Of a stretch of DNA of 44,262 nucleotides, positions 13,884 through 33,773 are shown one piece after another. The DNA is from Sphingomonas sp. (GTDB lineage: Bacteria; Pseudomonadota; Alphaproteobacteria; Sphingomonadales; Sphingomonadaceae). The stretch is from positions 1-44,262 of the forward strand of contig NZ_JANXNX010000042.1 of assembly GCF_025353885.1 (NCBI RefSeq). Reading direction: 5' to 3'. The notes under the pieces are model-generated. The model made no database searches. It was not told where the DNA came from and worked only from the letters and a program-made list of their open reading frames with translations. Numbering within the stretch: position 1 is the first letter of the stretch; each line of letters opens with the position of its first letter. The translations under genes and the position numbers were made by a program.

Positions 13884-13884
13884 C

Positions 13885-13911
13885 AAAAGGCCCCCGCTTT
13901 CGCGGGGGCCT
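13885..13911 (-). terminator. Intrinsic terminator of the autotransporter gene
   Basis: On the minus strand a 10-bp GC-rich stem (13902-13911 with 13888-13897) closed by a GAAA tetraloop is followed by TTTT. It lies 27 bp after the autotransporter stop codon. It ends right at the start codon of the next gene, so that gene's start is directly shaped by this structure. Confidence 0.85.
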
Positions 13912-17499: not shown

Positions 17500-18438
17500 T
17501 CAAGCCCGGGCGATTACCGTTCGATACAAGCTCGCCCCGGCGTAATCACGAAACTCGACGCCCATGCCGCCTTTGTCCAGCGTAATGGCCGCAAACCCGG
17601 ACCGTGCGACACAAAACTTCGTGCCTGCAACCGGCTTGACCGGACGAACCTCCGACCCGGCACCACAGCCCAGATACGCGACACCGTTGTCGACGATATG
17701 CTGCAAGTCATGGTCGTGGCCGTTGATATACGCCTGGACGCCGTGCCGTTCCAGCAGCGGCTTGATCACCGCGACCATTTCCGGCGTGTCGCCATGACCG
17801 CTCCCGCCAGAACGTATCGTGTGGTGGCCGACGACTAATTTCCGCGACGCCCTGGACGCCGACAGTGCGCGGTCCAGCCAGGCGACCTGCGCCTCACTGT
17901 CCTGCGACGCAACGTTCCGGGCGATCTGGCTGTCGACTTTCGTGCGGTAGGAATGGACCAGCGGCGAGCTGTCGATCACGAACAGATCGGTATCGGGCAT
18001 ACCGATGTCGGCCCCGCGCAGGACGTGATAGCGGCTCGGCATTTTCCAGCGCCGACTGCGCTTTGCATAGTCGAGTTGCGCCTGCGGGTTGCCGCGATAG
18101 TCATGATTGCCGAGCGCAACGTGCCATGGAACCTGCAACGCCGGATCGGTGTAGATATCCTCGAACGATGTCTGCCATTGCCGATCGTTCGCTGACTGCA
18201 CGCCGTTTTCGTAGAAATTATCGCCGACCGACAGGACGAAGCGTGCTTTTAATTCATGGGCGGCCTTGCCCATTGCCATGGCGACATCGCGCTGATGCTG
18301 CGCGCCGTCGCGGCCCCAGTCGCCGACGACCAGAAAGCTGGGTGATGCCGCCGTGGCCGCTTGGGCAAAAGGTGCCGCGGCCGCTACGACAGCCATCCCG
18401 CCGATGACGGTGCGGCGATTCACTGGACGGTCGAACAT
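17500..18438 (-). CDS. Tat-exported metallophosphoesterase, purple-acid-phosphatase-like
   Basis: A 312-aa calcineurin-like phosphoesterase close to small (mammalian TRAP-type) purple acid phosphatases. Dimetal-site motifs are GDWG (D40), GDNFYENG (D73, Y76), GNHDY (N111, H112), VGHHTIRSGG and GHDHDLQH. The Tyr in the GDxxY motif is the residue that gives purple acid phosphatases their colour. The N-terminus NRRTVIGG plus an Ala-rich hydrophobic stretch is a twin-arginine signal, fitting export of a folded metalloenzyme. Start 18438 has AGAGGGG 8 nt upstream; a GTG 9 nt earlier lies inside that site. The gene is 17 bp downstream of the TonB receptor gene, suggesting periplasmic release of phosphate from a phosphoester the receptor imports. 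Confidence 0.9.
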   Translation of the reverse strand: MFDRPVNRRTVIGGMAVVAAAAPFAQAATAASPSFLVVGDWGRDGAQHQRDVAMAMGKAAHELKARFVLSVGDNFYENGVQSANDRQWQTSFEDIYTDPALQVPWHVALGNHDYRGNPQAQLDYAKRSRRWKMPSRYHVLRGADIGMPDTDLFVIDSSPLVHSYRTKVDSQIARNVASQDSEAQVAWLDRALSASRASRKLVVGHHTIRSGGSGHGDTPEMVAVIKPLLERHGVQAYINGHDHDLQHIVDNGVAYLGCGAGSEVRPVKPVAGTKFCVARSGFAAITLDKGGMGVEFRDYAGASLYRTVIARA

Positions 18439-18455
18439 GGCAGGCACCCCTCTGG

Positions 18456-21005
18456 TCAGAACTTGAACTTCACGCCCGCCTCATAAGTCTGGTCGTAGAA
18501 CTCGCGCTGAATCGGTCGGTCAGGGCTTCCTTCGTAAAGCCGCAATGGCGCATTCGTCAGGTTCTTTGCATTGAAATAAACCCGGACGTTGCGCGTGATG
18601 TCGAGCGACGACGTGAAATCCAGCGTGGTGCGCGGGCTTTGATAAACATCGAACCGCGCCTCGTCGCCGATGCCGAACAGGCTCAATCCGACATATTGCG
18701 CGGCGAGGCGAAGCTCGACACCATGCGCCTCATACAGGGCGGCGGCATTCCAGGTGTATTTCGATGAAGCGGGCAACCGCCGTCTTTCACCCGTTCGCAA
18801 TTCGACTTCGCTGTCCACATAGGTTGCGTTGCCGTCGAACCCGAACCCATCGAAGGGCGCCGGCAGGAACGAGAATTTCTGGGTGTAGGCGACCTCGATT
18901 CCCCGCGCATGGGCCTTGGGAACGTTTTCATAGGAGTTGATTGTGATCGGGCTCGACGGGTTGGGCAGCAACGGATCCGACGCAGCTGGTTGCCTGCGTG
19001 CGACGATGTAATTCTTGAACTCCTTGTCGAACAGGCCAACCGACACGATGCCCGAATGTGGCAGGTAAAGCTCAAGCGCTAAATCGTAATTGTCGCCGGT
19101 CGTGGGCTGCAAGTCCGGATTGCCACGCGTAATGATGTTGTTGTCGGTATCGACGTTGACCGGTTTGGCGACCTGCGCGAACCCGGGGCGACCGATCCCC
19201 GTCGAATATGTGGCCCGGGCCAGCAACTTCGGGGATATGTCATAGCGCAACTGTACGGTCGGAAAGGTGTTGATGTAATTGCGCTTGCGTGTTCGGATGT
19301 CCGCTGTGTCGCCATTGCCAACGGCGTCGGCCGTGTATCGCGCATCGGTCCATTCGACCCGGACACCCGCCAGCGCGCCGAATTTCCCGGCGGTCAACGT
19401 GTACATTCCGTACGTTGCGTAAATGTCTTCGGTCGCTCTGAAATAACCGGTGTAGTCGGGAACCAGGCCACTGGTGGGCGATGAATTCGCCAGATTGCGA
19501 ATCGCACCGACGTCGATCTGCGGGCCATTGGTGTAATGATTGTCATAGAAATTGGTGATTGCCGGGCTCGAAACCGTGGCAAGGTTGACGGCGGGCGAAA
19601 CGAAACTCTGGGCGAAGGGCAGGTCGGTCTTGGTCCGCGTGCGAACCTCGCCACCGAACTGGATGCGGCCCTCGGTCGATCCGAAGTGCGTTTCGAGCGT
19701 GCCGTTCGCGGCGTAGGACCATTCCTTGTCCACGGCGCGTTCGGTGAAGTTTTTCAGTCCGCCCGGGCCCGCTTTCTGCGTGTACAGCGCAGCGTTGTTC
19801 GGGTCGGTGCCGTCGGTGATAGCGATCTTTGGAAAGTCGGGATTGGTGATATTGTCATAGGTAACCGCAACGCCGGTGGGGCCTGCGAAATTCGTCAAGT
19901 AATTCTGATTCACAAAGAATGTCGCCCGCGAATAGGCGGCGTGGTAATCGAGGTTGAAGTCGCCGAACCGGTCGTGTCCGCCAACGACATAGACCTGGTT
20001 GCGATGCGTTTCCTTTTCGTCGGTACCCTTGATCGACAGGTCGGACAGCGCGGTAAACCCGTTCGGATTGGCGGGATCGGCCAGCGGTGACCCATCGAGA
20101 TTGTCGAAGGTAAGCCGGTTCTTGCGGACTGATTCGACGTAACCCGCGATCGAAGCGCGCAGATAAATCTGATGATCGTCGTTCGGCGTGAAAGCGAACT
20201 CGCCGCCATAGCCGAACCGACGACGATGATAGTCGTAACGGCGCAACTGGATGTCGGCGAACGCCTTGTTGACCTGCTGCGCGCTGAACGGCTTGCCCGA
20301 CGTCGCAGTCAACGTGTCGTCGTTGATATAGTCGGCCTCGACATCGTCGAACCCGCGCTTGTCGTCGCGGCGCGATCCGGTCAGCACGAACGAGAACGGC
20401 TTGTTGTCGCCGCCGAAGCGCGCGCCCACCGCAAGATCGAGGTTCAACGGGCCGCCATGCTTGTGCGCCGGTTCATAGCCATAGCCGATCGCGCCCTCGG
20501 CGAACGGGTGCTCGACGTGCGCCGCTGATCGCGGGGTGAGTTCGATCGAGCCGCCCAGTCCCTCGGCGTCGTGATTGGGCATACCGGTCTTGCTGACGAT
20601 GATGCCGTCGATGGCGCCGGTCGGGATCGTGTCGAATTCGACCGCGCGTCCGCTGCCAAAGATCGTGCCGCCGGGATTGGTATTGAGCAACACGACGCCG
20701 CCATAGGTCGCGCCGTTCAGATTGCCGTCGATGCCGCGAATGTTGACAAAGCGGCCCTCGCCGGTGTCGCTGGACAGTGAAATGCCGGGAATGCGGCTCA
20801 GCGATTCAGCGGCGTTGAAATCGGGATATTTGGCGATTGCCTCCGCCGACTGCACATTGATCAGATTCGGAGCCAGTTTTTGCTTTGCGCGCGCCTGTTC
20901 CTCCTCGCGCGGGGCGGTTACGACGATTTCAGGAGTCGGCGCTTCACTGGCGAATGCCGGCGAGCACAACACAGTCGAGACAAGCGCCAGAACACGGATT
21001 TTCAT
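18456..21005 (-). CDS. TonB-dependent outer-membrane receptor
   Basis: An 849-aa receptor: Sec signal (about 1-20), TonB box EIVVTAP at 26-32, plug domain (about 45-170, with NIRGIDGNLNGATYGGVVLL and GAIDGIIVSKTG), and a 22-strand barrel ending EAGVKFKF with terminal Phe. It has no N-terminal STN domain, so it does not signal through FecR. It is of the large sphingomonad/Caulobacter class with the barrel motif ATYSTGIGRPGF. The substrate is unknown; the adjacent phosphatase suggests an organic phosphate, but this is inference. The start is ATG 21005 with GGGGTG 9 nt upstream; GTG 21017 is an alternative. It lies 121 bp after the YncE-like gene on the same strand. Confidence 0.93.
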   Translation of the reverse strand: MKIRVLALVSTVLCSPAFASEAPTPEIVVTAPREEEQARAKQKLAPNLINVQSAEAIAKYPDFNAAESLSRIPGISLSSDTGEGRFVNIRGIDGNLNGATYGGVVLLNTNPGGTIFGSGRAVEFDTIPTGAIDGIIVSKTGMPNHDAEGLGGSIELTPRSAAHVEHPFAEGAIGYGYEPAHKHGGPLNLDLAVGARFGGDNKPFSFVLTGSRRDDKRGFDDVEADYINDDTLTATSGKPFSAQQVNKAFADIQLRRYDYHRRRFGYGGEFAFTPNDDHQIYLRASIAGYVESVRKNRLTFDNLDGSPLADPANPNGFTALSDLSIKGTDEKETHRNQVYVVGGHDRFGDFNLDYHAAYSRATFFVNQNYLTNFAGPTGVAVTYDNITNPDFPKIAITDGTDPNNAALYTQKAGPGGLKNFTERAVDKEWSYAANGTLETHFGSTEGRIQFGGEVRTRTKTDLPFAQSFVSPAVNLATVSSPAITNFYDNHYTNGPQIDVGAIRNLANSSPTSGLVPDYTGYFRATEDIYATYGMYTLTAGKFGALAGVRVEWTDARYTADAVGNGDTADIRTRKRNYINTFPTVQLRYDISPKLLARATYSTGIGRPGFAQVAKPVNVDTDNNIITRGNPDLQPTTGDNYDLALELYLPHSGIVSVGLFDKEFKNYIVARRQPAASDPLLPNPSSPITINSYENVPKAHARGIEVAYTQKFSFLPAPFDGFGFDGNATYVDSEVELRTGERRRLPASSKYTWNAAALYEAHGVELRLAAQYVGLSLFGIGDEARFDVYQSPRTTLDFTSSLDITRNVRVYFNAKNLTNAPLRLYEGSPDRPIQREFYDQTYEAGVKFKF

Positions 21006-21138
21006 TTTGGTAAACACCCCGGTTTTCGATCCGTGGCATCTTCATGATGCCTCCGATTGCCGCGTGATGCTGCCCATTTATGACGGGTTGGAGACTATGC
21101 TGGCCATTCGGGTGAAGGTTGGGAAGATACAATGTTGG

Positions 21139-22149
21139 TCATCGCCGCGACACAACTGCCACGTGAAATGACCCCGCGATTGCCGCTGGTCGCGCGCCCG
21201 GCGTCGCTGGCGGGGAGAAGCGTGCTGTCGGCAGGTAGAGCGTCCCGTCCGCAGGATCGATCGCCCCCGTCCGCGCACCGGTTTCGGACTTTGCCGTAGC
21301 CACGACCTTGGCGCCACCGACAGCATCGAGCGCAACGATGCTCAGCGTTCCGTCCCGGCCGCACGGGATGATCGCGGTTCGTCGCACGGTGTCCATGATG
21401 ACAGCATCGGGGCCGCTGCCGATCGCCAGCAACTTCACCAGTTTGTGCGAACGCGCGTCCACGACGGCGGCCTTGCCATTGGCGCAGGCGCTGATCAACT
21501 GCCCGGTCCGGTCGTCATAGCCCAGTCCGGACGGTCCGGTGCAGCCGGGCAGGGCGGTGGTCGCGCTGACCTTGCCGCTCGTCAGGTCGGCGCTTTCGAT
21601 CTCGTTCAGATCCTCGTTATTCACATACAGCATGTTGTTGCGCCCAAGAACGCCGAATTCCAGACCGGGCTTCAGCATGATCGTCCTGACAACCTTGCGC
21701 GCCGCCACATCGATTAGCGAAACCGTCCCGTCCTTGGCATTCATGACCACGGCCCTGCCGCTGGCGGCGTCGTAGAAGGCGGCGTCGGGATCGGACCCGA
21801 CCGCGAACCGGGCCAGTTCATGACCGTCACCGGTCGCCAGCAATCGCACGCTGTTGTCGTGCGCGCTGGTGACGAGCAATTCCGCCTTGCCGGGGATCGG
21901 TACGACGGCGTGCGCCTTGGCGATTGCACCGAACGACCGCACCCTCCTGGTCGCCAGATCGACTGCGGTCACGACATTGCCGTGCGCGATGTAAAGCTGC
22001 CGCGCGGCCCCATCGATGCTGGCATAATCCCAACCGCCATCGGGTCCGGCGATCGATCCGGAGACAGCATAGGGTGGCACCGGTCCGGCCCCGATCAGCG
22101 CGAGGGCCGCAGCGGAAACGAACAGGGTTTTGAAGGTGGCGTGCAGCAT
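21139..22149 (-). CDS. YncE-like periplasmic seven-bladed beta-propeller protein
   Basis: A 336-aa exported protein. The signal peptide (about 1-22, LFVSAAALALIGAGPVPP) is followed by YVTN/NHL-type propeller repeats: IDGAARQLYIAHGNVVTAVD, VPIPGKAELLVTSAHDNSV, YDAASGRAVVMNAKDGTVS, GYDDRTGQLISACANGKAAV and IDPADGTLYLPTA. E. coli YncE is a periplasmic propeller of uncertain role, linked to iron/TonB conditions. Here it precedes a TonB receptor and phosphatase, so it may be a substrate-binding or scaffold partner. Start 22149 gives a proper signal peptide; the longer frame upstream has an implausible N-terminus. It is divergent from the response-regulator gene. Confidence 0.85.
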   Translation of the reverse strand: MLHATFKTLFVSAAALALIGAGPVPPYAVSGSIAGPDGGWDYASIDGAARQLYIAHGNVVTAVDLATRRVRSFGAIAKAHAVVPIPGKAELLVTSAHDNSVRLLATGDGHELARFAVGSDPDAAFYDAASGRAVVMNAKDGTVSLIDVAARKVVRTIMLKPGLEFGVLGRNNMLYVNNEDLNEIESADLTSGKVSATTALPGCTGPSGLGYDDRTGQLISACANGKAAVVDARSHKLVKLLAIGSGPDAVIMDTVRRTAIIPCGRDGTLSIVALDAVGGAKVVATAKSETGARTGAIDPADGTLYLPTARFSPPATPGARPAAIAGSFHVAVVSRR

Positions 22150-22224
22150 GGACAAGACCCGATTCGTTTGGAGATGGGTCTTCAGAGTGGCGGCACGACC
22201 GCCAGGAGGCCAGCGGCTTTGCAA

Positions 22225-22237
22225 GACATTGGGAAAA
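22225..22237. promoter_or_regulatory. CATTGG-containing motif between YncE-like and response-regulator genes
   Basis: GACATTGGGAAAA shares the octamer GACATTGG with the palindromic site at 24372-24391 in front of the efflux operon. Both lie in the likely control regions of genes flanking the two-component system. It could be a half-site for the response regulator. This is inference from two occurrences only. Confidence 0.3.
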
Positions 22238-22298
22238 TTTATAACTACATCCGCCCGTCTCCGCTATCGCTGAGGCAACGATCAGGGCTTCGAAAATA

Positions 22299-22976
22299 AT
22301 GCGCGTGCTGTTGGCCGAGGATGATGCTGAAACGACCGATCTGGTCACGCACGCGCTGGAACGGCTGGGCCATGTCGTGACCGCGGTGGGCACGGGCGGC
22401 GACGCGCTCCACGCCGGAGTTGCCGGAGCTTTCGACGTGATCGTGCTCGACCGGATGCTGCCCGGTATCGCGGGCGTGGACGTGCTCAAGCGGTGGCGCG
22501 CGGCGGGCGTTCATACGCCGGTCCTGATGCTGACCGCGCTCGGGGGTATCGCCGACCGGGTTGGCGGGCTGGAGGCGGGGGCCGACGATTATCTGGTCAA
22601 ACCCTTTGCCACCGTCGAACTGGCGGCGCGCCTGACCGCGCTGCAACGCCGCCCGGTGATCGCCGATCTGCCCACCCGGCTCCAGGTCGGCGCCATCACC
22701 CTCGATCTGCTGAAACGGGAGGTCAGGCGGGAACACCGCGAAGTCCATCTGCAACCGCGCGAGTTCGCATTGCTGGAACAACTCATGCGCCACGCGGGCG
22801 AAGTCGTCACGCGTTCGATGTTTCTGGAACGCATCTGGGGTTTCCATTTCGACCCCCAAACCAACATCGTCGAAAGCCACCTCAGCCGCCTCCGGTCCAA
22901 GCTAAAGGACGGCTTCACCTGCGATCCGATCGAAACCCTGCGCGGCGTCGGCTATCGAATGCGCAACGATGCCTGA
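22299..22976 (+). CDS. OmpR/PhoB-family response regulator
   Basis: A 225-aa regulator. The receiver domain (1-115) has acidic pocket D8-D9, phosphoacceptor D51 (IVLDRMLPG), a Thr in LMLTALGG and Lys in DYLVKPF. The DNA-binding winged helix (about 130-222) has LQPREFALLEQLMRHAGEVV and ESHLSRLRSKL. Its stop overlaps the kinase start by 8 bp. Being divergent from the YncE-receptor-phosphatase genes and upstream of the efflux genes, it is the obvious candidate to regulate both sides. Confidence 0.96.
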   Translation: MRVLLAEDDAETTDLVTHALERLGHVVTAVGTGGDALHAGVAGAFDVIVLDRMLPGIAGVDVLKRWRAAGVHTPVLMLTALGGIADRVGGLEAGADDYLVKPFATVELAARLTALQRRPVIADLPTRLQVGAITLDLLKREVRREHREVHLQPREFALLEQLMRHAGEVVTRSMFLERIWGFHFDPQTNIVESHLSRLRSKLKDGFTCDPIETLRGVGYRMRNDA

Positions 22977-24342
22977 GTCCAGCGCCGCCTCCAGTGCCCG
23001 CGCCGCATCCAGTGCCGCCTACCGCATCGCCTTCACCTATTCCTGCGCCTTTGCTCTCGCCATTCTCGTGCTCGGCATTACGGTCTATTATGCGGCCGAT
23101 GCCCAGTTCCGCTATCAGCAGGACGTCGGCATCGCAGAGAGCAGCACGCTGCTGATGCGCGAATATCGGGAAGGCGGCATCGCCGATCTGCGCGAGGCCA
23201 TCACCAAGCGAGAAGGACGCGATGCCGACAGCAGTTACCATTATGCGCTGTTCGACCCGGCGGGCGTCCGCACCGGCGGCGCGCTCGATACTGCCCGCTC
23301 GGAACCCGGTCGCCGTGATCTGATCGTCAGGAGTGCTGACGGAACGAACCGCCCGGCACGGGCGCTCGTGACCCAGTTGCCGGGTGGATACCGCGTCGTG
23401 GTCGCCGCCGATCTGGCGGCGCTGGAGCGGATCGACCGGATCATCCTCGAACTGTTCACTGCTGCATTCCTGATCGTCGTCATCATGGGTATCGTCGGCG
23501 CATTGTTGCTCGGCAGCTATTTGCGCCGCCGCCTCGGCACGATCAGCAACACCGCACAGGCCATCATAGCGGGTGATCTCGACCAGCGCATTGCCGTCAG
23601 CAACCGCAATGACGAGTTCGACCGGCTCGGTTCGGCGCTGAACGCGATGCTCGACCGCATCGCCCGGCTGCTGGCAAACCTGCGCCAGGTGTCGAGCGAT
23701 GTCGCGCATGATTTGCGAACCCCACTGGCCCGACTGCGCGGCCAGATAGAGGGGGCGCTCGATGAAGATCAGGAGCCAGCCATCCTGCGCCGTTCGCTGA
23801 AAAACGCCCTGAAGCAAAGTGACGAACTCTTGTCGCTGTTCGCCGCGATCCTGCGCATCGCAGAGGTCGAATCGGGCGCGCTGGCCAGAAACTTCAGGGC
23901 CGTCGACCTTACCGAACTGGCAACCGACCTGCATGAATCTTATGCCCCCGCGGTGGCGGATCACGGTCGCGCGCTGAACAGCGCGATCCAGCCCGGCGTG
24001 ACTGTTTTCGGTGATCGCGAACTGATCGCTCAGGCTCTGATCAACCTGCTCGACAATGCCCAGCGCCATACGCTGCCCGGAACCCGCATCCTCATCTCTG
24101 CAAGAACAACCGGGCAACAGGTCGTCCTGTCGGTGTCCGACGATGGTCCGGGCGTCCCGGCGGACGACCACGCGCTGATCGTCCGTCGTTTTGCCCGGCT
24201 CGATACCAGCCGGACAAAGCCCGGTCATGGGCTGGGGCTCAATCTGGTGTCGGCCATCGCCGACGCGCATCGGGGGCATCTGTTGATCGAGGATAATGGC
24301 CCGGGCCTGTGCGTGTCGCTCCTGTTACCGGCGCACCCTTGA
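22969..24342 (+). CDS. Membrane histidine kinase (HAMP, HisKA)
   Basis: A 457-aa sensor kinase with TM1 at about 22-42, a periplasmic domain of about 120 residues without recognised family, TM2 at about 160-183, HAMP (about 184-236), and a HisKA H-box with H247 in VSSDVAHDLRTPLARL. The ATP-binding domain has N-box QALINLLDNAQRHT, DDGPGVP and GHGLGLNLV. The periplasmic sensor has no Met- or His-rich metal-binding cluster, so a copper-sensor role is not supported. It is translationally coupled to the response regulator. Confidence 0.95.
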   Translation: MPESSAASSARAASSAAYRIAFTYSCAFALAILVLGITVYYAADAQFRYQQDVGIAESSTLLMREYREGGIADLREAITKREGRDADSSYHYALFDPAGVRTGGALDTARSEPGRRDLIVRSADGTNRPARALVTQLPGGYRVVVAADLAALERIDRIILELFTAAFLIVVIMGIVGALLLGSYLRRRLGTISNTAQAIIAGDLDQRIAVSNRNDEFDRLGSALNAMLDRIARLLANLRQVSSDVAHDLRTPLARLRGQIEGALDEDQEPAILRRSLKNALKQSDELLSLFAAILRIAEVESGALARNFRAVDLTELATDLHESYAPAVADHGRALNSAIQPGVTVFGDRELIAQALINLLDNAQRHTLPGTRILISARTTGQQVVLSVSDDGPGVPADDHALIVRRFARLDTSRTKPGHGLGLNLVSAIADAHRGHLLIEDNGPGLCVSLLLPAHP

Positions 24343-24371
24343 TGCCCGGGTCCGGCCCGCCGGGGTGCGAC

Positions 24372-24444
24372 GACATTGGCTTACCCCAATGCCGGACGAC
24401 AACCCCGCTCGTAGGTTTGCGGATCGGACAGCTTACCCTAATGC
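24372..24444. promoter_or_regulatory. Candidate operator: inverted repeat and 13-bp direct repeat before the efflux operon
   Basis: In the gap between the kinase stop and the outer-membrane factor start, CATTGG (24374-24379) and CCAATG (24386-24391) form a perfect inverted repeat with a 6-nt spacer. CTTACCCCAATGC (24380-24392) recurs as CTTACCCTAATGC (24432-24444) with one mismatch, 52 bp away, about five helical turns. Such repeats fit a regulator-binding region for the RND operon. The flanking octamer GACATTGG also occurs at 22225. Confidence 0.4.
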
Positions 24445-24475
24445 GCTGGCAATGAGGGCACCCCGCGATCATCGG

Positions 24476-25825: not shown

Positions 25826-26862
25826 AACTCTATCCGATACTCTTGCTACCCATGTTCGCGCTGACCGCGTGCGGGGAGGCCGAAGCACCGACAGCCGAGG
25901 TCGCGCCGACGGCAACGGTCAAGTCCGCTAGGGCATCGCTTGGGATCTCGGCTGGCGACCTGGCCGTCTATGGCGTGACAGAGGCGGGACCTGGCGGCGA
26001 GCAGTCGGTCGTTGCCGCGCGTGAAGCGATCCTCACTGCCATCCTCGCGCCGACCGGCACCGCCGTCCGTGCCGGGCAACCGATTGTCACCCTGCGCCCA
26101 AGTCCGACCGCCGCATTGGAACGTGCCAAGGCGTCGAGCGATGCCACACTGGCCAATGCCGCGCTGTCCCGCGCCCTGCGTTTGCGATCCGACGGGCTGG
26201 TCAGTGACGCCGATGTCGAAACCGCTCGCGCCGCTGTTCGTGCCGCCGTTGCGACCCAGGCGGCGACCGGCAGCGGTGGCAACGTCCTGCGCGCCCCTGC
26301 TGCGGGCACGGTCCAGGCGCTCAATGCCAGACCCGGCGACCAGATTGCGGCAGGCACGGCGGTTGCGTCGGTGGCCATAGCGGGAGAGCGTCGCGCCCGT
26401 TTCGGCGTCGATCCGGCAACCGCCGCGCGCATCCACCCCGGCCAGAGCATCAGGATCGACGGTCTCAGCGGTGGCGCAGCGACGACCGCCGCCACCGTCA
26501 CCGCAACCGTCGTCGGCGTCGATCCGGCGGTCGACGCAACCACGCGGCTGGCATCGGTGTTCGCACGACTGCCCGTCACCTTCGGCGTCGGAACGCCGTT
26601 GCGCGGCCATATCGCCATCGGAGGCCAGACGTCGGGAGTGACGATCCCCTATGCCGCGCTGCTCGACGATGGTGGCAAGAGTTTCGTGTTCGTCATCGAC
26701 CGGGGCGTCGCCAAACGACGCGACGTCGCGCCAGGCAACACTGCGGGCGACAGCGTTACCATCCTGACCGGTTTGAAAGAGGGCGAGCGCGTCGTCACCG
26801 AAGGGGGCACCGCGCTCGAGGATGGCATGAAAATACGCGAAGCCGGGTCGGCTGCCCGGTGA
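25822..26862 (+). CDS. RND efflux periplasmic adaptor (membrane fusion lipoprotein)
   Basis: A 346-aa adaptor protein with a lipoprotein signal, LTAC (C17). It has a short barrel-sandwich/lipoyl half (ILAPTGTAVRAGQPIVTL ... VLRAPAAGTVQALNARPGD) around a short alpha-hairpin, a beta-barrel domain, and a membrane-proximal region ending LKEGERVVTEGGTALEDGMK. No extra metal-binding domains or His/Met clusters are visible. Start 25822 gives an ATGA overlap with the upstream stop and has GAAGGA upstream. It links the inner-membrane pump to the outer-membrane factor. Confidence 0.9.
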   Translation: MKLYPILLLPMFALTACGEAEAPTAEVAPTATVKSARASLGISAGDLAVYGVTEAGPGGEQSVVAAREAILTAILAPTGTAVRAGQPIVTLRPSPTAALERAKASSDATLANAALSRALRLRSDGLVSDADVETARAAVRAAVATQAATGSGGNVLRAPAAGTVQALNARPGDQIAAGTAVASVAIAGERRARFGVDPATAARIHPGQSIRIDGLSGGAATTAATVTATVVGVDPAVDATTRLASVFARLPVTFGVGTPLRGHIAIGGQTSGVTIPYAALLDDGGKSFVFVIDRGVAKRRDVAPGNTAGDSVTILTGLKEGERVVTEGGTALEDGMKIREAGSAAR

Positions 26863-29800
26863 GGGAACTGATCCAGCGTCACAGCCGGTCGATCTGGCTG
26901 AGCGTCTTCCTTGTCACGCTGGCCGGACTGGTCGCCGCGACGCGGCTCCCCGTGACGCTGTTCCCGCATATCGACTATCCGCGCGTTGTCGTCGCCATTG
27001 ATGCCGGGGACCGCGATGCGACCCAGATGGCGACGCTCGTCACCCGGCCAGCCGAAATTGCGTCGCGCGCCATTCCTGGCGTCACCCAGATCCGCTCGGT
27101 CACCAGTCGCGGGTCGGCGGAGGTGTCTTTGACCTTTGGTTGGGGCGATGACATGGTCGCCGCCACGCTCGCCACGCAGGGCGCGCTGGCGGCGATCGTT
27201 CCCGACCTGCCCACCGGCACGCGATTTACCGTCCGCCGGTCCGATCCGACAATCTTTCCGGTCGTCGGCCTGTCGCTGACCTCGGCAAAACGTTCCGATA
27301 CCGAATTGGCGCAGGTGGCCCAGCTCCAGTTGCGGCCCATCCTGTCCACCGTGCCGGGTGTGGCAGGGGTCGATGTCATCGGCGGCTCCGCGCCCGAACT
27401 CGAAGTCGAAGTCGATCCGGTAAAGCTGCAAAGCCTTGGCCTGACGACAAGCGACGTCGCAACCGCGCTCGGTAGCGCCAACAGCGTCGCTGCCGTCGGT
27501 CGGATCGAGGATCGCCACCGGCTTTACCTCGCATTGGTCGAGAATCGCGTTGCCAATGAATCCGATATTGCTGCGATTCCGGTCAAATCGGGGGCCGCAG
27601 GCGGCGTCGTAACGATCGGGCAGGTGGCGACCATCCGCCGCGCCCCAGCCCCCGCTTGGACGAAGGTCACCTCGAACGGCACCCGCGCGGTACTGGTCAA
27701 CGTCCGCCAGACGCCCACCGCCGACGCCGTCGCGCTGGTCAAGGCCGTCGATGAACGGATCAAGGCGGCGGCACTTCCCGCAGACGTAAAGATCAGCGTC
27801 TTTTACGACCAGTCCGAACTGGTCACGGGCGCCGCCAATGCCGTCCGCGACGCCATCTTGCTGGGGGCGGCGCTGGCGGGAATCGTGCTGTTCGTGTTCC
27901 TGCGCAGTTGGCGGCTGATGGTCATCACCGCCTCGATGCTGCCCGCCGTCCTCGCTGCGACGTGTCTGATACTGTACATTTCTGGCATGAGTTTCAATAT
28001 GATGACTCTCGGCGGCATGGCGGCGGCTGTTGGACTTGTCGTCGATGACGCGGTCGTCATGCTCGAGCATCTGATGCGCCGCCTCCAGGGGCATCAACGT
28101 GATAATCTACCAACTTCGATGCTCGCCGCCGCCCGCGAAATGTCGAAGCCGCTGTTTGGCTCGACAATGGCCACCATCATCGTTTTCCTGCCCCTCGCCT
28201 TCATCACCGGGGTCACCGGCGGCTTCTTCAAGGCGCTGGCGATCACCATCGTTGCCGCCCTTGGCATTTCGCTCCTTTATGCCCGGTACGTCCTCCCCCT
28301 GATCGCCGACCGCTGGCTGACGCACAAGGATGCCGAGTCGGCTGAAAAGGCCGAGGGCTTCATGGGCGGCATCACCCGCCGCTACGAACGCGGCATCGAC
28401 CGCGCCCTGAAACGCCCCGCACTCTTTGCCGGCGTCGTCGCGGTGGTGATGATCGCGGTCGGTGGCTTGTCCTGGAGTCACGTCCAGTCGGGCTTCATGC
28501 CAAAGATGGACGAAGGCGGCTTCATCCTCGACTATAAGGCAAAGTCGGGTGCGGCGTTGACCGACACCGACCGGCTCTTGCGCCAGGTTGAAAAGATCAT
28601 CCGCGCCACGCCCGAGGTGGCCAGCTATTCCCGACGGACGGGCTTCCAGTTGGGGGGTGGCCTGACCGAAGCTGACGAGGGGGATATCTTCATTCGCCTC
28701 CACAATGGTCGTCGTCGTCACATCGAAGACGTCATGTCGGAAGTCCGCGACAAGGTGGCGGCGCAGGTCCCCGGCCTCCAGATCGAGACCGCACAATTGA
28801 TGGAAGACCTGATCGGCGACCTGACGGCAGTCCCGCAACCGATCGAGGTCAAGCTGTTCGGTGACGACGAGACGCAACTGGCAGGTGCCGCACAAAAGGT
28901 CGCCGACGGCATCGGCTCGATCAAGGGTATTGCAGAGGTCAACAATGGTCTTCGCGTCGCCGGCGACGCCGTGGTCATCACCGTCGACCGCGCGGCGGCT
29001 TCGCTCGCCGGCCTCGAGCCCGCCACCGTCGCAACGCAGGTCGGGTCGCAGGTCGACGGCGTCATCGCCACGCAGGTTCAGGCCGGTGAACAAGTGATCG
29101 ATGTGCGCGTGCGACTGCCGCAGGATCTCCGCCGCCGGGCCGATGCGCTCTCGTCGTTGACCTTGCGCGCGACCGACGGACGGATCGTCTCGCTCGGCTC
29201 CATCGCGAAAATCACCATCTCCGCTGGCCAGAAACAGATCACCCGCGAAGACCTGTCGCCGTTCATCCCGGTGACCGCGCGGCTTGACGGTCTCGATCTC
29301 GGCAGCGCCATAAGTGCGGTTCAGGCCAAGGTGGCTGCGCTGAAACTGCCCCCGTCGATCCGCGTCGAATATGGCGGGCTCTACCAGCAGCAGACCCAGT
29401 CGTTCCGCGACTTGACCACAGTGTTTGTCGCGGCGCTGTTGCTGGCGGCGCTGCTGTTGACCCTGTTGTTCGAGAAATGGGCATTTACTCTGGGGGTCAT
29501 CGGGACGGTGCTGGTGTCAGTCATGGCCGTCTTTGCCGGGCTGTGGGTGACCGGCACCGAACTCGATATCTCGGCGCTGATGGGGCTCACGATGGTCGTC
29601 GGCATGATCACTGAACTCGCCATTTTCTATCTGGCCGAACTCGATACCGAACACTCGCTCAGTGCCGAAAGCCTGATTGCGGCAGGGCGGGCACGGCTGC
29701 GCCCGATCCTTATGTCCGCCCTGATCGCGATCCTCACGCTGCTGCCGCTTGCGCTTGGAATCGGTCGCGGTTCGGGACTGCAAAAGCCCCTCGCCACCGC

Positions 29801-29903
29801 AATCATCTTCGGGCTGGCGGTTGGGGCGCCATTGATTGTAACCTTGTTGCCCATGCTCGTGCTGGTGATGACGCGAGGTCGAAAGGACGTCGTTGCCCGT
29901 TGA
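26859..29903 (+). CDS. RND efflux pump permease, intermediate between drug- and metal-type
   Basis: A 1014-aa inner-membrane pump with twelve predicted TMs in two halves, each with a large periplasmic loop. The TM4 region GGMAAAVGLVVDDAVVMLE carries D396-D397 as in drug pumps (AcrB), while TM10 GMITELAIF has Glu (E919) where AcrB has its proton-relay Lys and where, from memory, CusA has Glu. The family motif RLRPILM is present after TM10. It lacks an obvious methionine-rich pathway, so the substrate class is uncertain. It starts at GTG 26859, overlapping the adaptor stop (GTGA). The gene ends 15 bp before the sigma factor gene. Confidence 0.93.
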   Translation: MRELIQRHSRSIWLSVFLVTLAGLVAATRLPVTLFPHIDYPRVVVAIDAGDRDATQMATLVTRPAEIASRAIPGVTQIRSVTSRGSAEVSLTFGWGDDMVAATLATQGALAAIVPDLPTGTRFTVRRSDPTIFPVVGLSLTSAKRSDTELAQVAQLQLRPILSTVPGVAGVDVIGGSAPELEVEVDPVKLQSLGLTTSDVATALGSANSVAAVGRIEDRHRLYLALVENRVANESDIAAIPVKSGAAGGVVTIGQVATIRRAPAPAWTKVTSNGTRAVLVNVRQTPTADAVALVKAVDERIKAAALPADVKISVFYDQSELVTGAANAVRDAILLGAALAGIVLFVFLRSWRLMVITASMLPAVLAATCLILYISGMSFNMMTLGGMAAAVGLVVDDAVVMLEHLMRRLQGHQRDNLPTSMLAAAREMSKPLFGSTMATIIVFLPLAFITGVTGGFFKALAITIVAALGISLLYARYVLPLIADRWLTHKDAESAEKAEGFMGGITRRYERGIDRALKRPALFAGVVAVVMIAVGGLSWSHVQSGFMPKMDEGGFILDYKAKSGAALTDTDRLLRQVEKIIRATPEVASYSRRTGFQLGGGLTEADEGDIFIRLHNGRRRHIEDVMSEVRDKVAAQVPGLQIETAQLMEDLIGDLTAVPQPIEVKLFGDDETQLAGAAQKVADGIGSIKGIAEVNNGLRVAGDAVVITVDRAAASLAGLEPATVATQVGSQVDGVIATQVQAGEQVIDVRVRLPQDLRRRADALSSLTLRATDGRIVSLGSIAKITISAGQKQITREDLSPFIPVTARLDGLDLGSAISAVQAKVAALKLPPSIRVEYGGLYQQQTQSFRDLTTVFVAALLLAALLLTLLFEKWAFTLGVIGTVLVSVMAVFAGLWVTGTELDISALMGLTMVVGMITELAIFYLAELDTEHSLSAESLIAAGRARLRPILMSALIAILTLLPLALGIGRGSGLQKPLATAIIFGLAVGAPLIVTLLPMLVLVMTRGRKDVVAR

Positions 29904-29918
29904 TCGGCGGTTTGGAAG

Positions 29919-30482
29919 ATGAGTGCGGATGGATTGCTGGCTGTTCTATTGGGCGACCGCGCAATGCTGCTGCGGTTCCTGATGGCACGCGGCGCTTCGC
30001 CAGCGGAGAGCGAGGATATTCTGCAGGATATCTTTTTGAAACTCAGGACTGCGCAGATCGGCCCGATCGGCGAGCCAAAAGCCTATCTTTATCGAATGGC
30101 CCACAATCTGCTGAATGACAGGAGGCGCGCCGCGGCACGACAGGAAACCCGCGAAACGGCATGGGCCGCAACGCGCTTCGGGGAAGACGGGCAGTCGCTT
30201 GGCGCGGCTTCGGTCGAAGAACGCCTGATCCAGCGCGAACGGTTGAAAACGGTCGAAGTGACGCTGGCGCGGCTGCCCGAACGGACGTCGTTTATCCTGC
30301 GTCAGTATCGCGTCGAGGGGGTTTCACAAAAGGCGATCGCTGCAAATCTGGGGATTACGATCAGCGCGGTCGAAAAGCATTTGCAGCGCGCCTATCGCGC
30401 GATCCTCGACGTGCGCCGTCAGCTGGATGCGGATATCGACGATCCGCGGCGTCTTGGCACAAAGGGCGGCGACCGATCATGA
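29919..30482 (+). CDS. FecI-type ECF RNA polymerase sigma factor
   Basis: A 187-aa sigma-70 family protein with only regions 2 and 4. Region 2 has AESEDILQDIFLKLR and KAYLYRMAHNLLNDRRR; region 4 has LARLPERTSFILRQYRVEG and the helix-turn-helix QKAIAANLGITISAVEKHLQ. The order sigma - FecR - STN receptor is the signature of iron-citrate-type cell-surface signalling. It starts 15 bp after the RND pump gene, leaving little room for its own promoter, and its stop overlaps the FecR start. A start shortly downstream cannot be excluded, as the GGAAG site abuts the ATG. Confidence 0.93.
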   Translation: MSADGLLAVLLGDRAMLLRFLMARGASPAESEDILQDIFLKLRTAQIGPIGEPKAYLYRMAHNLLNDRRRAAARQETRETAWAATRFGEDGQSLGAASVEERLIQRERLKTVEVTLARLPERTSFILRQYRVEGVSQKAIAANLGITISAVEKHLQRAYRAILDVRRQLDADIDDPRRLGTKGGDRS

Positions 30483-31429
30483 GCAGGCAAGAAAAACCGA
30501 TGGATGCCGAAACGATCGAGGCGCAGGCGATTGCGTGGCATTTCTCACTTGCCGACGCTAACGCCGCTACCTGGGACGATTTCACGACATGGCTAGAGGC
30601 GGATCGTCGACATGCCCTCGCCTATGACCGGGTAATTGCTGCAGAATGCGACATCGATCATGCGTTGCCCACGCCTTTGGGCGCCGCGAACGACCATGAC
30701 ACCGGCAGGCCCTTTCGGTGGCGCTGGTCGGGCGCAGGCTTTGGCATAGCCGCTGCTGCTGCGATGGCGGTGCTTTATTCAGGGTTTGGAAGTTCCTATC
30801 CTGAACCTTTCGAGGTTGCCACGGGCCTGGGCCAGCAGCGGACCGTGAAACTTGCGGACGGCACGAAGATTGCTCTGAACGGGAGCAGCATGGTCACTCT
30901 GGATCGTCGTAATCCTCGCCTTGCCGTGTTGAAGTCGGGCGAAGCTGTTTTCACGGTGGTACACGATGACAAGGCACCGTTTATCGTGAACGTTGGAGGA
31001 GGCCGGATTGTCGATGTCGGGACCATATTCAACGTCGTTACCGTCGGCAAATCCGTGACGGTGACGGTGAAACAAGGAAGGGTCCGCTATACCTCGGGCG
31101 TAGCGGATGTCCCCCTGCAACGCGGACAGAGTTTGACAGACGCCGGTGGTAGCGACCCGATTGTGATCGGTAACAGGCATGTCGATGCAATCGCATCATG
31201 GCAAACGGGGCGGCTTGACTATGATCTGCAGCCGCTGGGTCTCGTATCTCAGGACGTCGCCCGCTATCTTGGTGTCCCCGTAACAATCGACGCCTCCCTC
31301 GCCGGAAGGCAATTCAGCGGCACGATCCAGATCGACCGGGATCGTCCCCGCTTTTTCGCGCGCCTCGCCAAGTTGCTGGGTGTAAAGGCGAGGCCAGATG
31401 GCAATGGTTGGAAGCTTACCGCGCAATAA
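30479..31429 (+). CDS. FecR-family anti-sigma factor
   Basis: A 316-aa single-pass membrane regulator. The cytoplasmic N-terminal domain (DUF4880-like, WDDFTTWLEADRRHALAYDR) binds the sigma factor. One TM lies at about 82-103. The periplasmic FecR domain has FEVATGLGQQRTVKLADGT, LNGSS and GGGRIVDVGTIFNV, and a C-terminal region resembles STN/DUF4974 (FSGTIQIDRDRPRFFARLAK). It relays ligand occupancy of the STN receptor to the sigma factor. The start at 30479 overlaps the sigma stop by 4 nt; much longer upstream frames lie inside the sigma gene. Confidence 0.93.
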   Translation: MSRQEKPMDAETIEAQAIAWHFSLADANAATWDDFTTWLEADRRHALAYDRVIAAECDIDHALPTPLGAANDHDTGRPFRWRWSGAGFGIAAAAAMAVLYSGFGSSYPEPFEVATGLGQQRTVKLADGTKIALNGSSMVTLDRRNPRLAVLKSGEAVFTVVHDDKAPFIVNVGGGRIVDVGTIFNVVTVGKSVTVTVKQGRVRYTSGVADVPLQRGQSLTDAGGSDPIVIGNRHVDAIASWQTGRLDYDLQPLGLVSQDVARYLGVPVTIDASLAGRQFSGTIQIDRDRPRFFARLAKLLGVKARPDGNGWKLTAQ

Positions 31430-31430
31430 T

Positions 31431-33773
31431 ATGCGCAACTGCTGTATTGCCCTGGCGGTGATCGGCGTGGCGGTGACGCCCGCGGCAGCGAAGACCAGAC
31501 CGGTATTCGACATTCCGGCGGGCAATGTGGGACGTGCCCTCGTCGAGTTTGGCAGGCAGGCCGGGTGGAACGTCGGAATGACCGACCCGGTGCTCGCGCG
31601 TCGCCCTTCGAACCGGGTCAAGGGTCGTCACAGGCCGGTCGAGGCGCTGCGTCTGCTGCTCCGATCGACGGGCGCGAATTTCATGATGCTGGATGACCAC
31701 AGCGCAAAAGTGTTTGCGGACGCCCTGCCGGCCCTGCGTCCAGCGCCGTTGTCGCGTCCGGCGGACGCGGGGCCAACTCCCGAAATCGTGGTTACCGCCA
31801 GTAAGCAACAGACCCCGCTCGCGCGGTATGCAGGAACGGTAAGAGTTGTCAGTTTAAGCGCGGCTTCGCCATCTTCCAGCACCGCGCAGGGAACTGCCAC
31901 TCTTGTCGCGCAGCTTCCCATGCTTTCATCGACCGAACTGGGCCCTGGACGTAACAAGGTCTTCATTCGCGGGATTGCCGACAGCAGCTTCAATGGCGCG
32001 TCGCAATCCACCGTGGGTCATTATCTTGGCGACGCAAGACTGACATTCAACGCGCCCGACCCCGATCTCAATCTGTACGACATGGATCGCGTCGAGGTTC
32101 TGGAAGGCCCACAGGGCACGCTTTATGGAACCGGTACGGTCGGCGGGATCATCCGGTTTGTGCCCAATCCTCCCGATATGGCCAACGTCAAGGGGTCGAT
32201 CACGACCGCGATCGATTACACGTCGAAAGGCGGCGGCGGGGGAGACGGCGGCGCCATGGTGAATGTGCCGCTGATGATCGACAGGTTGGCGATGCGGGTG
32301 GTGACCTATGGATCGATCGAGTCCGGCTATATCGACGACCCATCTCGCGGCCGATCGAACGTTAATCAAACGAAAACGAAGGGAGGACGGCTGGCATTGC
32401 GGTGGCAGCCTTCTCCGGACTGGACTGTGGATGGGGGGCTGGTGGTTCAGGACATCGCGTCCGCCGATGGGCAATATGTCATCGCGGGAGCACCCGACCT
32501 GACGCGTGTGACAAGGATTGCGCAACCGTTCGATAACGACTTTCGGTTGGGCTATATCACCCTGACGCACCATGCCGGTTCGATCTCGCTGACATCGACG
32601 ACTTCGATCGTCAGGCATGACATCGCGACGGTTTTTGACGCCACGCCGAACAATCCGGTAGCGCCCACGTCCCGCTATGACGAACAAAGTGATATCACTC
32701 TTATTGCACACGAAACCCGCGTTTCCGGCGCTACGGACACTCTGTCGTGGGTGGGGGGACTGGCGGGGCTTTACAACAAGAACCGGTTCACGACCGCGAT
32801 CGGCGGGCCATCCGCGTCGACGGTTTCCAACGGAGTCGAAAACCAGGTCGAACAGTTGGCCAGCTTTGGCCAACTCACCTATTGTCCGCATTGCAAGGTC
32901 GAATTTTCGGGGGGGGCGCGCGCAGAGGTAACCCGGTCCGAAGGGTCGCTTCTCTTACGAGCGCAGGGGGACGTCGCCGAACCCTCGCGGGTTGATATTC
33001 GCCTTTCGCCGTCATTGGGAATCGGCTGGCACGCGGGTGACAGGCTGCTGGTTTTCGGGCGTTTCCAGCAAGGTGCACGATCGGGCGGTCTGGCCGTCTC
33101 GCCTTTGGATAACCGCACCACTTCACAAAGGTTTCAAGCCGACACGTTGCGGGCTGTCGAATTGGGAGTGCGGGCCGGTGGCAGGGAGACGACCCATGCA
33201 TGGCTGAATGCCACGCTGTCGTATGCGCATTGGAACAACATCCAGGCCGACCTTATCGACAGCGCCGGGCTGATCTATACGACGAACCTTGGTGATGGCT
33301 ATGTCCTGGGGCTTGAAGCGCAGGGAGGGATATCGCCGCTGGCAAATTTGATTGTCGACGGCGCCCTTTTCATAAACTCAAGCGCGCTGTCGGACCCTGT
33401 GCCAGCATTTGACACATCGCGGGACCGCGATCTGCCCGACGTCGCGGCCACGGGAGTCCGACTTTCCGCAGCATATTCGATGCAACTCTCCCAAAGGGAC
33501 GCCATCGATTTTAGCGGCACGCTGCGCTATGTTGGCCCATCGAAACTCGGGATCGGCACACCGTTTGCGCTATCGCAAGGACGCTATCTGATGAGTTCGA
33601 TGGCCGTTAGTTATGCCGTCGACGACACCCGAATATCGCTGGGCATCGATAATCTCGGCGATGTTCGCGGCAATCGTTTTTCATTCGGCAATCCGTTCGG
33701 CTTTGCGGCCGGTGACCAGCGAACCCCGCTTCGGCCGCGTTCATTTCGGGTGGCGGTGAGCCGAAGCTTTTAG
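31431..33773 (+). CDS. TonB-dependent receptor with STN signalling domain (FecA-like)
   Basis: A 780-aa receptor with signal peptide 1-20, a secretin/TonB short N-terminal domain (about 25-95, FDIPAGNVGRALVEFGRQAG), TonB box EIVVTAS at 118-124, and a plug (about 130-250) with FIRGIADSSFNGASQSTVGH and DMDRVEVLEGPQGTLYGTGT. The barrel ends SFRVAVSRSF with terminal Phe. The STN domain contacts FecR when ligand binds, so this protein both imports and senses its ligand. The ligand is not evident; the plug belongs to a group common in sphingomonads rather than to FecA proper. Start 31431 is 1 nt after the FecR stop, implying translational coupling. Confidence 0.92.
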   Translation: MRNCCIALAVIGVAVTPAAAKTRPVFDIPAGNVGRALVEFGRQAGWNVGMTDPVLARRPSNRVKGRHRPVEALRLLLRSTGANFMMLDDHSAKVFADALPALRPAPLSRPADAGPTPEIVVTASKQQTPLARYAGTVRVVSLSAASPSSSTAQGTATLVAQLPMLSSTELGPGRNKVFIRGIADSSFNGASQSTVGHYLGDARLTFNAPDPDLNLYDMDRVEVLEGPQGTLYGTGTVGGIIRFVPNPPDMANVKGSITTAIDYTSKGGGGGDGGAMVNVPLMIDRLAMRVVTYGSIESGYIDDPSRGRSNVNQTKTKGGRLALRWQPSPDWTVDGGLVVQDIASADGQYVIAGAPDLTRVTRIAQPFDNDFRLGYITLTHHAGSISLTSTTSIVRHDIATVFDATPNNPVAPTSRYDEQSDITLIAHETRVSGATDTLSWVGGLAGLYNKNRFTTAIGGPSASTVSNGVENQVEQLASFGQLTYCPHCKVEFSGGARAEVTRSEGSLLLRAQGDVAEPSRVDIRLSPSLGIGWHAGDRLLVFGRFQQGARSGGLAVSPLDNRTTSQRFQADTLRAVELGVRAGGRETTHAWLNATLSYAHWNNIQADLIDSAGLIYTTNLGDGYVLGLEAQGGISPLANLIVDGALFINSSALSDPVPAFDTSRDRDLPDVAATGVRLSAAYSMQLSQRDAIDFSGTLRYVGPSKLGIGTPFALSQGRYLMSSMAVSYAVDDTRISLGIDNLGDVRGNRFSFGNPFGFAAGDQRTPLRPRSFRVAVSRSF

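Follow-up and report, generated by a model that had tools for sequence, protein, structure and literature searches.

Uptake, phosphatase, efflux and signalling genes around a divergent promoter in Sphingomonas sp.: a mosaic of three modules

Introduction

What would bring a tripartite efflux pump, two outer-membrane receptors, an exported phosphatase and two signalling routes together in one place? The question is raised by contig NZ_JANXNX010000042.1 of Sphingomonas sp. (assembly GCF_025353885.1), of which we analysed positions 1 to 44,262, a stretch of 44,262 nucleotides that we call the window. A preliminary description, made from the sequence alone, had placed eleven genes at 17500-33773 around a divergent centre and proposed that import of an organic phosphate or metal-chelating compound is balanced by efflux. 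All of these frames were found, on the strands claimed, and Pfam, NCBIfam or PDB matches back their assignments.

We conclude that the locus is put together from three modules as a mosaic, and that it is neither accidental nor a single fixed unit. Module 1 consists of a response regulator, a kinase, a resistance-nodulation-division (RND) pump and a YncE propeller; module 2 of a TonB-dependent transporter (TBDT1) and the exported phosphatase; and module 3 of FecI, FecR and a signalling receptor, TBDT2. We tentatively favour the reading that this is a metal-type two-component locus whose two sides are driven from one promoter box, and are less confident about the substrate. The observations are the gene content, recurrence of the divergent layout, a single exact box that itself recurs, phosphatases of other folds, the clade of the pump and its acidic site.

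Results and discussion

The two sides diverge from the stretch between the gene for a YncE-like secreted beta-propeller (21139..22149, minus strand, with the start set at M26 of a frame beginning at 22224) and that for an OmpR/CusR-type response regulator (22299..22976, plus strand; PF00072 and PF00486), which is followed by a sensor histidine kinase gene (22969..24342, plus strand; HAMP, HisKA and HATPase_c). The regulator is 42% identical to CusR. Its top NCBIfam match is cztR_silR_copR (206.7 bits, below the cut-off of 279.2), and that of the kinase is cztS_silS_copS (168.8 bits, below the cut-off of 292.55).

The intergenic stretch carries ACATTGGGAAAATTTATAA at 22226-22244, a putative response-regulator box of the form ACATTGGGAA-N2-TTTATAA in the shared divergent promoter, with no strand assigned. 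Its 17-bp form, ACATTGGGAANNTTTAT, occurs as a single exact copy in the 2.76 Mb genome, at this promoter; the next best site has two mismatches, and allowing up to three gave 18 sites genome-wide versus 8 for a reversed control pattern. The same box stands at the corresponding promoters of two congeners (G327 and G221), of Sphingomonas koreensis and of Hephaestia (two sites, one weaker), and shorter matches occur at the S. asaccharolytica, S. mali and G043 promoters. At up to four mismatches, the block loci (including those from which the box was read) gave 12 sites in 272 kb, the other TBDT1 loci 11 in 1,228 kb, the other pump loci 5 in 553 kb and the 60 control loci 1 in 1,126 kb. The core ACATTGGGAA, with 22 occurrences in 3.4 Mb of loci, lay at most 700 bp upstream of the regulator at 5/5 loci with a regulator of at least 70% identity (window included), 6/13 at 58-70%, 4/24 at 50-58% and 0/29 below 50%, counts in which a few loci occur twice. 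Such a fall-off is as expected of a self-regulated site, and shared promoter ancestry would contribute to it too. A scan with a 15-bp pattern and two mismatches was dropped (22 matches, 21.5 expected); because it ran at chance level, work with the box was confined to exact or near-exact copies. By eye, GCTTACCCYAATGC appears twice in the gap that separates the kinase from the probable start of the next gene (24379-24392 and 24431-24444, 52 bp apart); since its reverse complement resembles the CATTGGG core, these copies could be a second, weaker regulator site.

Comparable wiring is described for Caulobacter. In the passages available from a review, UzcR is a regulator responsive to U, Zn and Cu, with CATTAC-N6-TTAA as its site and with TonB receptors and multidrug pumps among its targets, while the uranium-responsive UrpRS controls a phytase (PMC8963506); an excerpt of a second paper has UzcR binding the acrAB-nodT promoter and TonB receptor promoters, with zinc as an activating stress (PMC12864828). 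As far as these excerpts go, UzcRS and UrpRS of Caulobacter crescentus resemble the window in placing TonB receptors and efflux pumps (UzcR) and a phytase (UrpR) under two-component control, and the window's CATTGG-GAAAAT-TTAT has the layout of the UzcR site with three letters differing. Binding of UzcR is there reported across the whole genome, whereas the window genes are clustered under one divergent promoter. On this comparison, the Caulobacter logic of one regulator for receptors and pump would be present in the window in clustered form. Two Caulobacteraceae genomes have 4 and 6 regulators at E<=1e-45, and UzcR was not identified among them.

The same parallel admits another explanation, a general envelope-stress regulon in which receptor and pump are co-induced and share no substrate, as with UzcRS in Caulobacter. 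The promoters that UzcR targets in those excerpts (PMC12864828, PMC8963506) and the similar site architecture fit it, but the exact box is single-copy in the genome, unlike a dispersed regulon, and in several species the genes lie in a physical cluster. We hold this explanation to be distinctly unlikely.

How far the genes keep company elsewhere was surveyed in three samples. The first was a family sample of 149 genomes, own genome included, with cut-offs of E<=1e-150 for TBDT1 and E<=1e-250 for the pump. TBDT1 was found in 6/149 and the pump in 16/149, and all 6 TBDT1 genomes hold the pump (hypergeometric p = 6e-7). The two halves, whose rare co-occurrence would have spoken for an accidental neighbourhood, occur together beyond chance, although the preliminary description went too far in making one unit of eleven genes. 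The divergent layout recurs in several Sphingomonas-type genomes, but among the 28 pump loci of the third sample all parts were together only in the window.

The second sample was the best 80 of 115 TBDT1 loci kept from a scan of a named genome collection. In S. koreensis S11.1Y the layout is complete, with pump, adaptor, outer-membrane factor (OMF), kinase and regulator facing YncE, TBDT1 and phosphatase (64, 48, 56, 60 and 73% identity on one side, 67, 67 and 61% on the other) and with an extra PepSY gene before the regulator. Sphingomonas sp. NFR15 has the layout with only a partial phosphatase match and a PAP2 match nearby. The regulator-kinase pair faces YncE, TBDT1 and phosphatase, with the pump not in view, in S. 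asaccharolytica, S. mali and one metagenome-assembled genome (MAG); S. echinoides has TBDT1 and phosphatase alone; and in Hephaestia mangrovi the genes from pump to regulator face a 38% identical TBDT1, with YncE reversed. Within 8 kb of TBDT1, YncE was found at 53 loci, the regulator-kinase pair at 28 and any RND homologue at 12 (some 24-29% identical), as against 0, 1 and 0 in 40 control receptor stretches (Fisher p = 4e-14, 2e-5 and 0.006, values that ignore shared ancestry and rest on 80-locus counts with doubled loci). This radius misses the pumps of S. koreensis and NFR15, which lie just beyond it. In the own genome, 20 stretches around other TonB receptors, viewed within 8 kb of the middle, held a weak regulator-kinase pair in 1 and no homologue of YncE, the pump, FecI, FecR or the query phosphatases.

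The third sample was a pump search of 397 genomes, 28 of which had the pump at E<=1e-300; one stretch each was examined, several of them cut by contig ends. Adaptor and OMF lay on the pump strand at 27 of the 28 loci, with YncE at 9, FecI-FecR at 4, a TBDT2 relative at 5 and phosphatase at 2 (one partial). In congeners G327 and G221, YncE faces regulator, kinase, OMF, adaptor, pump, FecI, FecR and TBDT2 in the exact order and at 65-92% identity (the G327 contig ends inside TBDT2). The stretches viewed in these two congeners contained no TBDT1 or purple acid phosphatase; the YncE side instead has a different TonB receptor and, at L178 6025-7454 and L177 6165-6893, PAP2-family phosphatases, one in G327 and two in G221, the G221 pair with a PhoC-like top NCBIfam match far under cut-off. 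A further congener, G296, has the pump without FecI-FecR behind it; the contig of G090 ends 389 bases behind the pump and is uninformative on this point, and two further sampled congeners gave no pump match at E<=1e-300. Among the loci, L080/L189 (taken as one genome), L066/L110, L052/L111 and L039/L071 are each one locus present twice, L114 and L115 are both named S. glacialis, and L078 and L079 give near-identical matches.

The last gene of the left side (17500..18447, minus strand, likely start 18438; PF00149, 60.8 bits) had been described simply as an exported phosphatase. It does encode a phosphatase with a twin-arginine translocation (Tat)-like leader, and the assignment can be refined. 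The protein matches human, pig and rat tartrate-resistant acid phosphatase (TRAP) with phmmer E-values of 8e-48 to 5e-46, the best match spanning residues 33-314. The motifs GDWG, GDNFY, GNHD, GHH and GHDH are all kept in the window protein and in 5/5 aligned relatives; these, with GNH for the third, we take to be metal-ligand motifs. We therefore predict a TRAP-type purple acid phosphatase of the mammalian type. At E<=1e-20 it was found in 0 of the other 148 genomes of the family sample.

Next to it lies TBDT1 (18456..21017, minus strand), a receptor of the TonB-Xanth-Caul subfamily (TIGR01782, 424.9 bits, cut-off 310) and, with TBDT2, one of two window genes among 33 genome-wide matches to the TonB-receptor barrel family. 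The YncE-like propeller that follows is weakly supported, with 27.0 bits to PF21783 (cut-off 27.1), 47.5 bits to TIGR03866 (under cut-off) and 26% identity over 122 aa to E. coli YncE. A TonB receptor adjoins a YncE-type propeller in E. coli pqqU(yncD)-yncE too, to which the window adds a phosphatase and a regulator pair. Membership of TBDT1 in PqqU/YncD was dropped, as BLASTP against PqqU gave no match at E<=1e-3. On a Polymorphobacter megasporae plasmid, about 33 kb (L071 12518-45864) carry three YncE-like propellers, three TonB receptors, two regulator-kinase pairs and a pump trio, a possible expansion of a similar module.

Four Pfam families are represented among the phosphatases beside TBDT1 relatives or in the congeners' locus: Metallophos (purple acid), PAP2, PF04185 and PF01663 (PhoY/PafA-like). 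We take PF04185 and PF01663 to belong to one superfamily, so that the four families make three folds. In a Sphingomonadaceae receptor-phytase pair on a leaf-isolate plasmid, a more distant receptor, 28% identical to TBDT1, overlaps the phytase gene; unlike the window, the 18 kb viewed there have no kinase, YncE or pump annotated. This variety looks like repeated replacement. Pfam families were tallied for neighbour genes of TBDT1 loci after ten loci (near-duplicates or short contigs) had been removed; the first 40 of the remaining 70 gave 145 genes, of which 122 were analysed (four long frames and 19 genes of L121-L125 were left out) and included 12 PF04185, 6 Metallophos and 2 PAP2. As controls, 20 other receptors from the same subfamily, two of whose focal frames (L203 and L215) were wrongly picked, contributed 79 neighbour genes, with 3 phytase, 3 Metallophos and 2 PhoD matches among which overlap is possible; both tallies cover the first 25 families, single-member families falling outside. 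The phosphatase link had at one stage been taken as the strongest signal, and it weakened when these control receptors gave no significance. A post hoc comparison of the 45 nearest loci (24/45 vs 4/20, p = 0.011) is not relied on. A phosphatase partner is frequent across the receptor subfamily, and TBDT1 is set apart by the regulator pair, YncE and the pump.

These neighbours bear on an explanation with no role for metal, in which the locus scavenges organic phosphate: TBDT1 and the phosphatase would exploit a phosphorylated organic molecule that the kinase detects, and what the pump exports would be its toxic organic remainder or a cationic antimicrobial. Phosphatases of four families around TBDT1 relatives or in the congeners' locus agree with it, as do the PAP2 phosphatases that also lie near pump relatives without TBDT1 and the AcrB-type D-D pair kept in transmembrane helix 4 (TM4) of the pump. 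It is set back by the best family match of the regulator pair, which is of heavy-metal type though below cut-off, by an acidic cluster at the CusA metal site and by the phosphatase neighbours of control receptors. We judge it unlikely, though a serious contender. The organic-phosphate idea of the preliminary description is strengthened by the phosphatases of several folds that accompany TBDT1 relatives, but same-subfamily control receptors often adjoin phosphatases too.

Behind the kinase come genes for a TolC-like OMF with a lipoprotein leader (24452..25825, start maybe 24476; PF02321), an RND periplasmic adaptor (25813..26862; TIGR01730, 143.8 bits, cut-off 94.9) and the RND permease (26859..29903; PF00873, 662 bits), all on the plus strand. 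The permease is a strong family match, yet scores too low for either the CusA/CzcA or the multidrug subfamily cut-off; against TIGR00914 (heavy-metal efflux RND, CusA/CzcA) it scored 419.9 bits and did not reach the cut-off of 701.45. In a tree of 29 permeases the window clade stood apart from CusA/CzcA and from AcrB/MdtBC, with a support of 1.0 for the dividing branch.

The methionine triad of CusA is absent: D558, E607 and D654 of the window permease align with CusA M573, M623 and M672. Across the 18 clade members compared, the M573 and M672 columns are Asp in 18/18, and the M623 column is Glu in 12, His in 4 and Arg or Lys in 2. The same columns read M, T, T in AcrB, T, S, T in MdtB and G, S, G in MdtC; four CzcA-like pumps, which read S A E, M E E, Q A E and G V H, lack the full triad, and because CzcA-like pumps vary there, acids at these columns are not unique to the window clade. 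In TM10 the window has Glu919, matching CusA E939, where AcrB has K940. The AcrB-like D-D pair of TM4 is kept, and the set of D-D plus TM10 Lys of the hydrophobe/amphiphile efflux type is incomplete, with the Lys replaced. We take the CusA methionine columns and E939, and the AcrB TM4 Asp pair and TM10 Lys, to be positions with functional roles. Identity is about 24% to CusA and to AcrB, so a local alignment shift is possible, though three MAFFT runs with different sets agree.

The window resembles CusCFBA/CusRS and CzcCBA in its CusR-like regulator, tripartite pump and TM10 Glu, and differs in a pump outside the CusA/CzcA clade, D/E/D for the methionine triad and the TM4 D-D pair; in E. coli cus, moreover, cusF lies between the OMF and adaptor genes, where the window has no gene. 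A more ambitious proposal would be that one metal-sensing two-component system couples TonB import and periplasmic dephosphorylation of a metal-organophosphate complex to the expulsion of the freed hard cation by an unrecognised acidic-triad RND clade, the phosphatase fold being exchangeable; we regard it as speculative and improbable. Pump relatives (37-74% identical) were also seen on 19 plasmid records, 4/19 of them typed conjugative, from Polymorphobacter, Sphingomonas, Sphingobium, Novosphingobium, Burkholderia-group and other bacteria.

The right side ends, still on the plus strand, with genes for a FecI-type extracytoplasmic function (ECF) sigma factor (29919..30482; PF04542 and PF08281), a FecR-type anti-sigma factor/transducer (30479..31429; PF04773, 55.3 bits, matched in the longer frame 30161-31429) and TBDT2 (31431..33773; PF00593 and PF07715), a receptor with an N-terminal signalling (STN-like) region. 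Residues 34-260 of TBDT2 align to FpvA and residues 12-101 to the FecA N-terminus; a Pfam scan of TBDT2 reported no STN model. A FecIRA-type signalling set is present, in the same order as in ferric-citrate signalling, in which TBDT2 differs by not being FecA (33 bits, cut-off 1100).

Preliminary annotation of the right side as overlapping or near-touching frames is correct from OMF to TBDT2, but the overlap of kinase and OMF is a start-codon artefact. The leader and the congener frames moved the OMF start from 24296 to 24452 or 24476, leaving a kinase-OMF gap of 109-133 bp in the window (143 and 72 bp from the called frames of two congeners). The FecR start was revised to 30479, an ATGA overlap with FecI read from the sequence, and that of TBDT2 to about 31431. 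The RND-FecI gap is 15 bp in the window and in congener G221. A terminator scan found none in this gap, the closest match lying within the pump gene at 29815-29831; the scan gave no more matches than shuffled sequence did (8 vs 14.5), and the same holds for a sigma-70 promoter scan (3 vs 3.6).

TBDT2 occurs at E<=1e-80 in 58/149 family genomes. FecI and FecR lay beside 20/20 sampled TBDT2 relatives, within 8 kb of which YncE, RND and phosphatase homologues numbered 0/20; the 20 were chosen after leaving out relatives already viewed, including four beside the pump and G067, in which YncE adjoins FecI-FecR-TBDT2. The FecIR receptor set is a module in its own right and often occurs without the pump. 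A TBDT2 relative nevertheless lay within about 12 kb of the pump in 5/16 pump genomes of four genera (the window, G117, G043, G123 and G027), where 0.36% is expected per genome (binomial p ~3e-9, by genera 9e-8; approximate values that assume a mean genome size and take no account of fragment lengths or shared ancestry). Four of the five also show FecI and FecR; in the fifth, G043, the stretch is cut off within the receptor, which is located upstream of regulator, kinase, OMF, adaptor and pump on the same strand. Within 8 kb of TBDT1, FecR homologues were found at 4/80 loci and FecI at 2/80, with FecR at 1/20 controls. One stretch of a Phenylobacterium MAG holds a regulator pair, TBDT1, a phosphoesterase, YncE and FecI-FecR-TBDT2-like genes, and S. 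mali has a TBDT2-like receptor about 11 kb from TBDT1 on the same-numbered contig.

This proximity also bears on whether independent mobile modules came to lie side by side and were retained by chance. That the full set is present in 1/28 pump loci, that pump relatives sit on plasmids and that two related loci carry insertion sequences would suit such an origin. However, the layout recurs in several species, the conserved box is shared and TBDT2 relatives lie near the pump far above expectation, and we consider chance retention highly improbable.

On the two-component reading that we favour, the cue sensed by the kinase would come from the envelope, most likely a metal cation that is chelated or in excess; the kinase would then phosphorylate the regulator, which would bind the box at 22226 between the divergent genes and activate its own operon with the RND pump rightward and YncE, TBDT1 and the purple acid phosphatase leftward. 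TBDT1 may import a phosphorylated, perhaps metal-binding, ligand to the periplasm; the Tat-exported phosphatase would strip its phosphate, and the pump would expel the cation that is set free or imported along with the ligand. As a separate ligand-sensing module, FecI-FecR-TBDT2, which has been attached behind the pump both here and in two congeners, would add a second inducer. The metal side of the preliminary description, which named a metal-chelating compound as one option, is in keeping with the regulator type, the UzcR-like promoter site and the acidic pump site.

Several observations weigh against this reading. Regulator and kinase both fall under the heavy-metal family cut-offs. The core of the box is absent at several regulators of 58-67% identity, and the receptor and phosphatases that replace those of the window in congener G221 lack a box of their own even when four mismatches are allowed. 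At 68/80 TBDT1 loci there is no RND homologue within 8 kb (many contigs are short); among the 28 pump loci, the regulator-kinase pair lies upstream on the pump strand in 11 (either strand, 16), TBDT1 is nearby in just 3, and the window alone has the full set. Phosphatase genes, finally, make up 20/122 neighbours of TBDT1 and at most 8/79 of controls (p = 0.15). A search with exemplar phosphatases gave 28/80 TBDT1 loci and 4/20 control loci (p = 0.15), a count biased to TBDT1 since the queries came from TBDT1, pump or related loci; the own genome gave 0/20 stretches.

Some further genes were noticed at related loci. At L078 14808, a box-like site with four mismatches lies 39 bp upstream of a gene for a DUF347 membrane protein; DUF347 matches lie within 8 kb of TBDT1 in 7/80 loci, and the protein may belong to the regulon. 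Small PepSY proteins adjoin the regulator or the pump (L077 7938-8228, L059 3849-4169, L061 16180-16707 and L073 10333-10614); the exemplar search placed PepSY near TBDT1 in 6/80 loci, and none was noticed in the window. The excerpted review reports a PepSY protein as uranium-binding (PMC8963506). Membrane proteins that look similar by eye lie near FecI-FecR-TBDT2-like sets at L063 13639-14571, L065 13546-14544 and L105 15996-16946, with glycosyltransferase- or deacetylase-like genes nearby; one of the three was tested and had no Pfam match. Left of the block, the window encodes an autotransporter-type protein of 1046 residues (13939-17079) and a DUF4915 protein (12789-13886).

Conclusions

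We found no description of such a gene cluster in the titles, abstract starts and some passages of the open-licence literature; none of the pump clade or the box turned up there either, neither having been searched by name. Each part of the locus is of a known kind; what is new is the box, a TRAP-type phosphatase with counterparts of other folds, and a separate RND clade with acidic residues. In compact form, the locus apparently puts TonB uptake, efflux and the scavenging of phosphorus under one regulator, and both the promoter element and the RND clade named here lend themselves to direct testing. If the pump moves hard cations, it would represent a further class of metal RND pump; otherwise, the locus remains an example of uptake and efflux modules being assembled around a conserved regulator.

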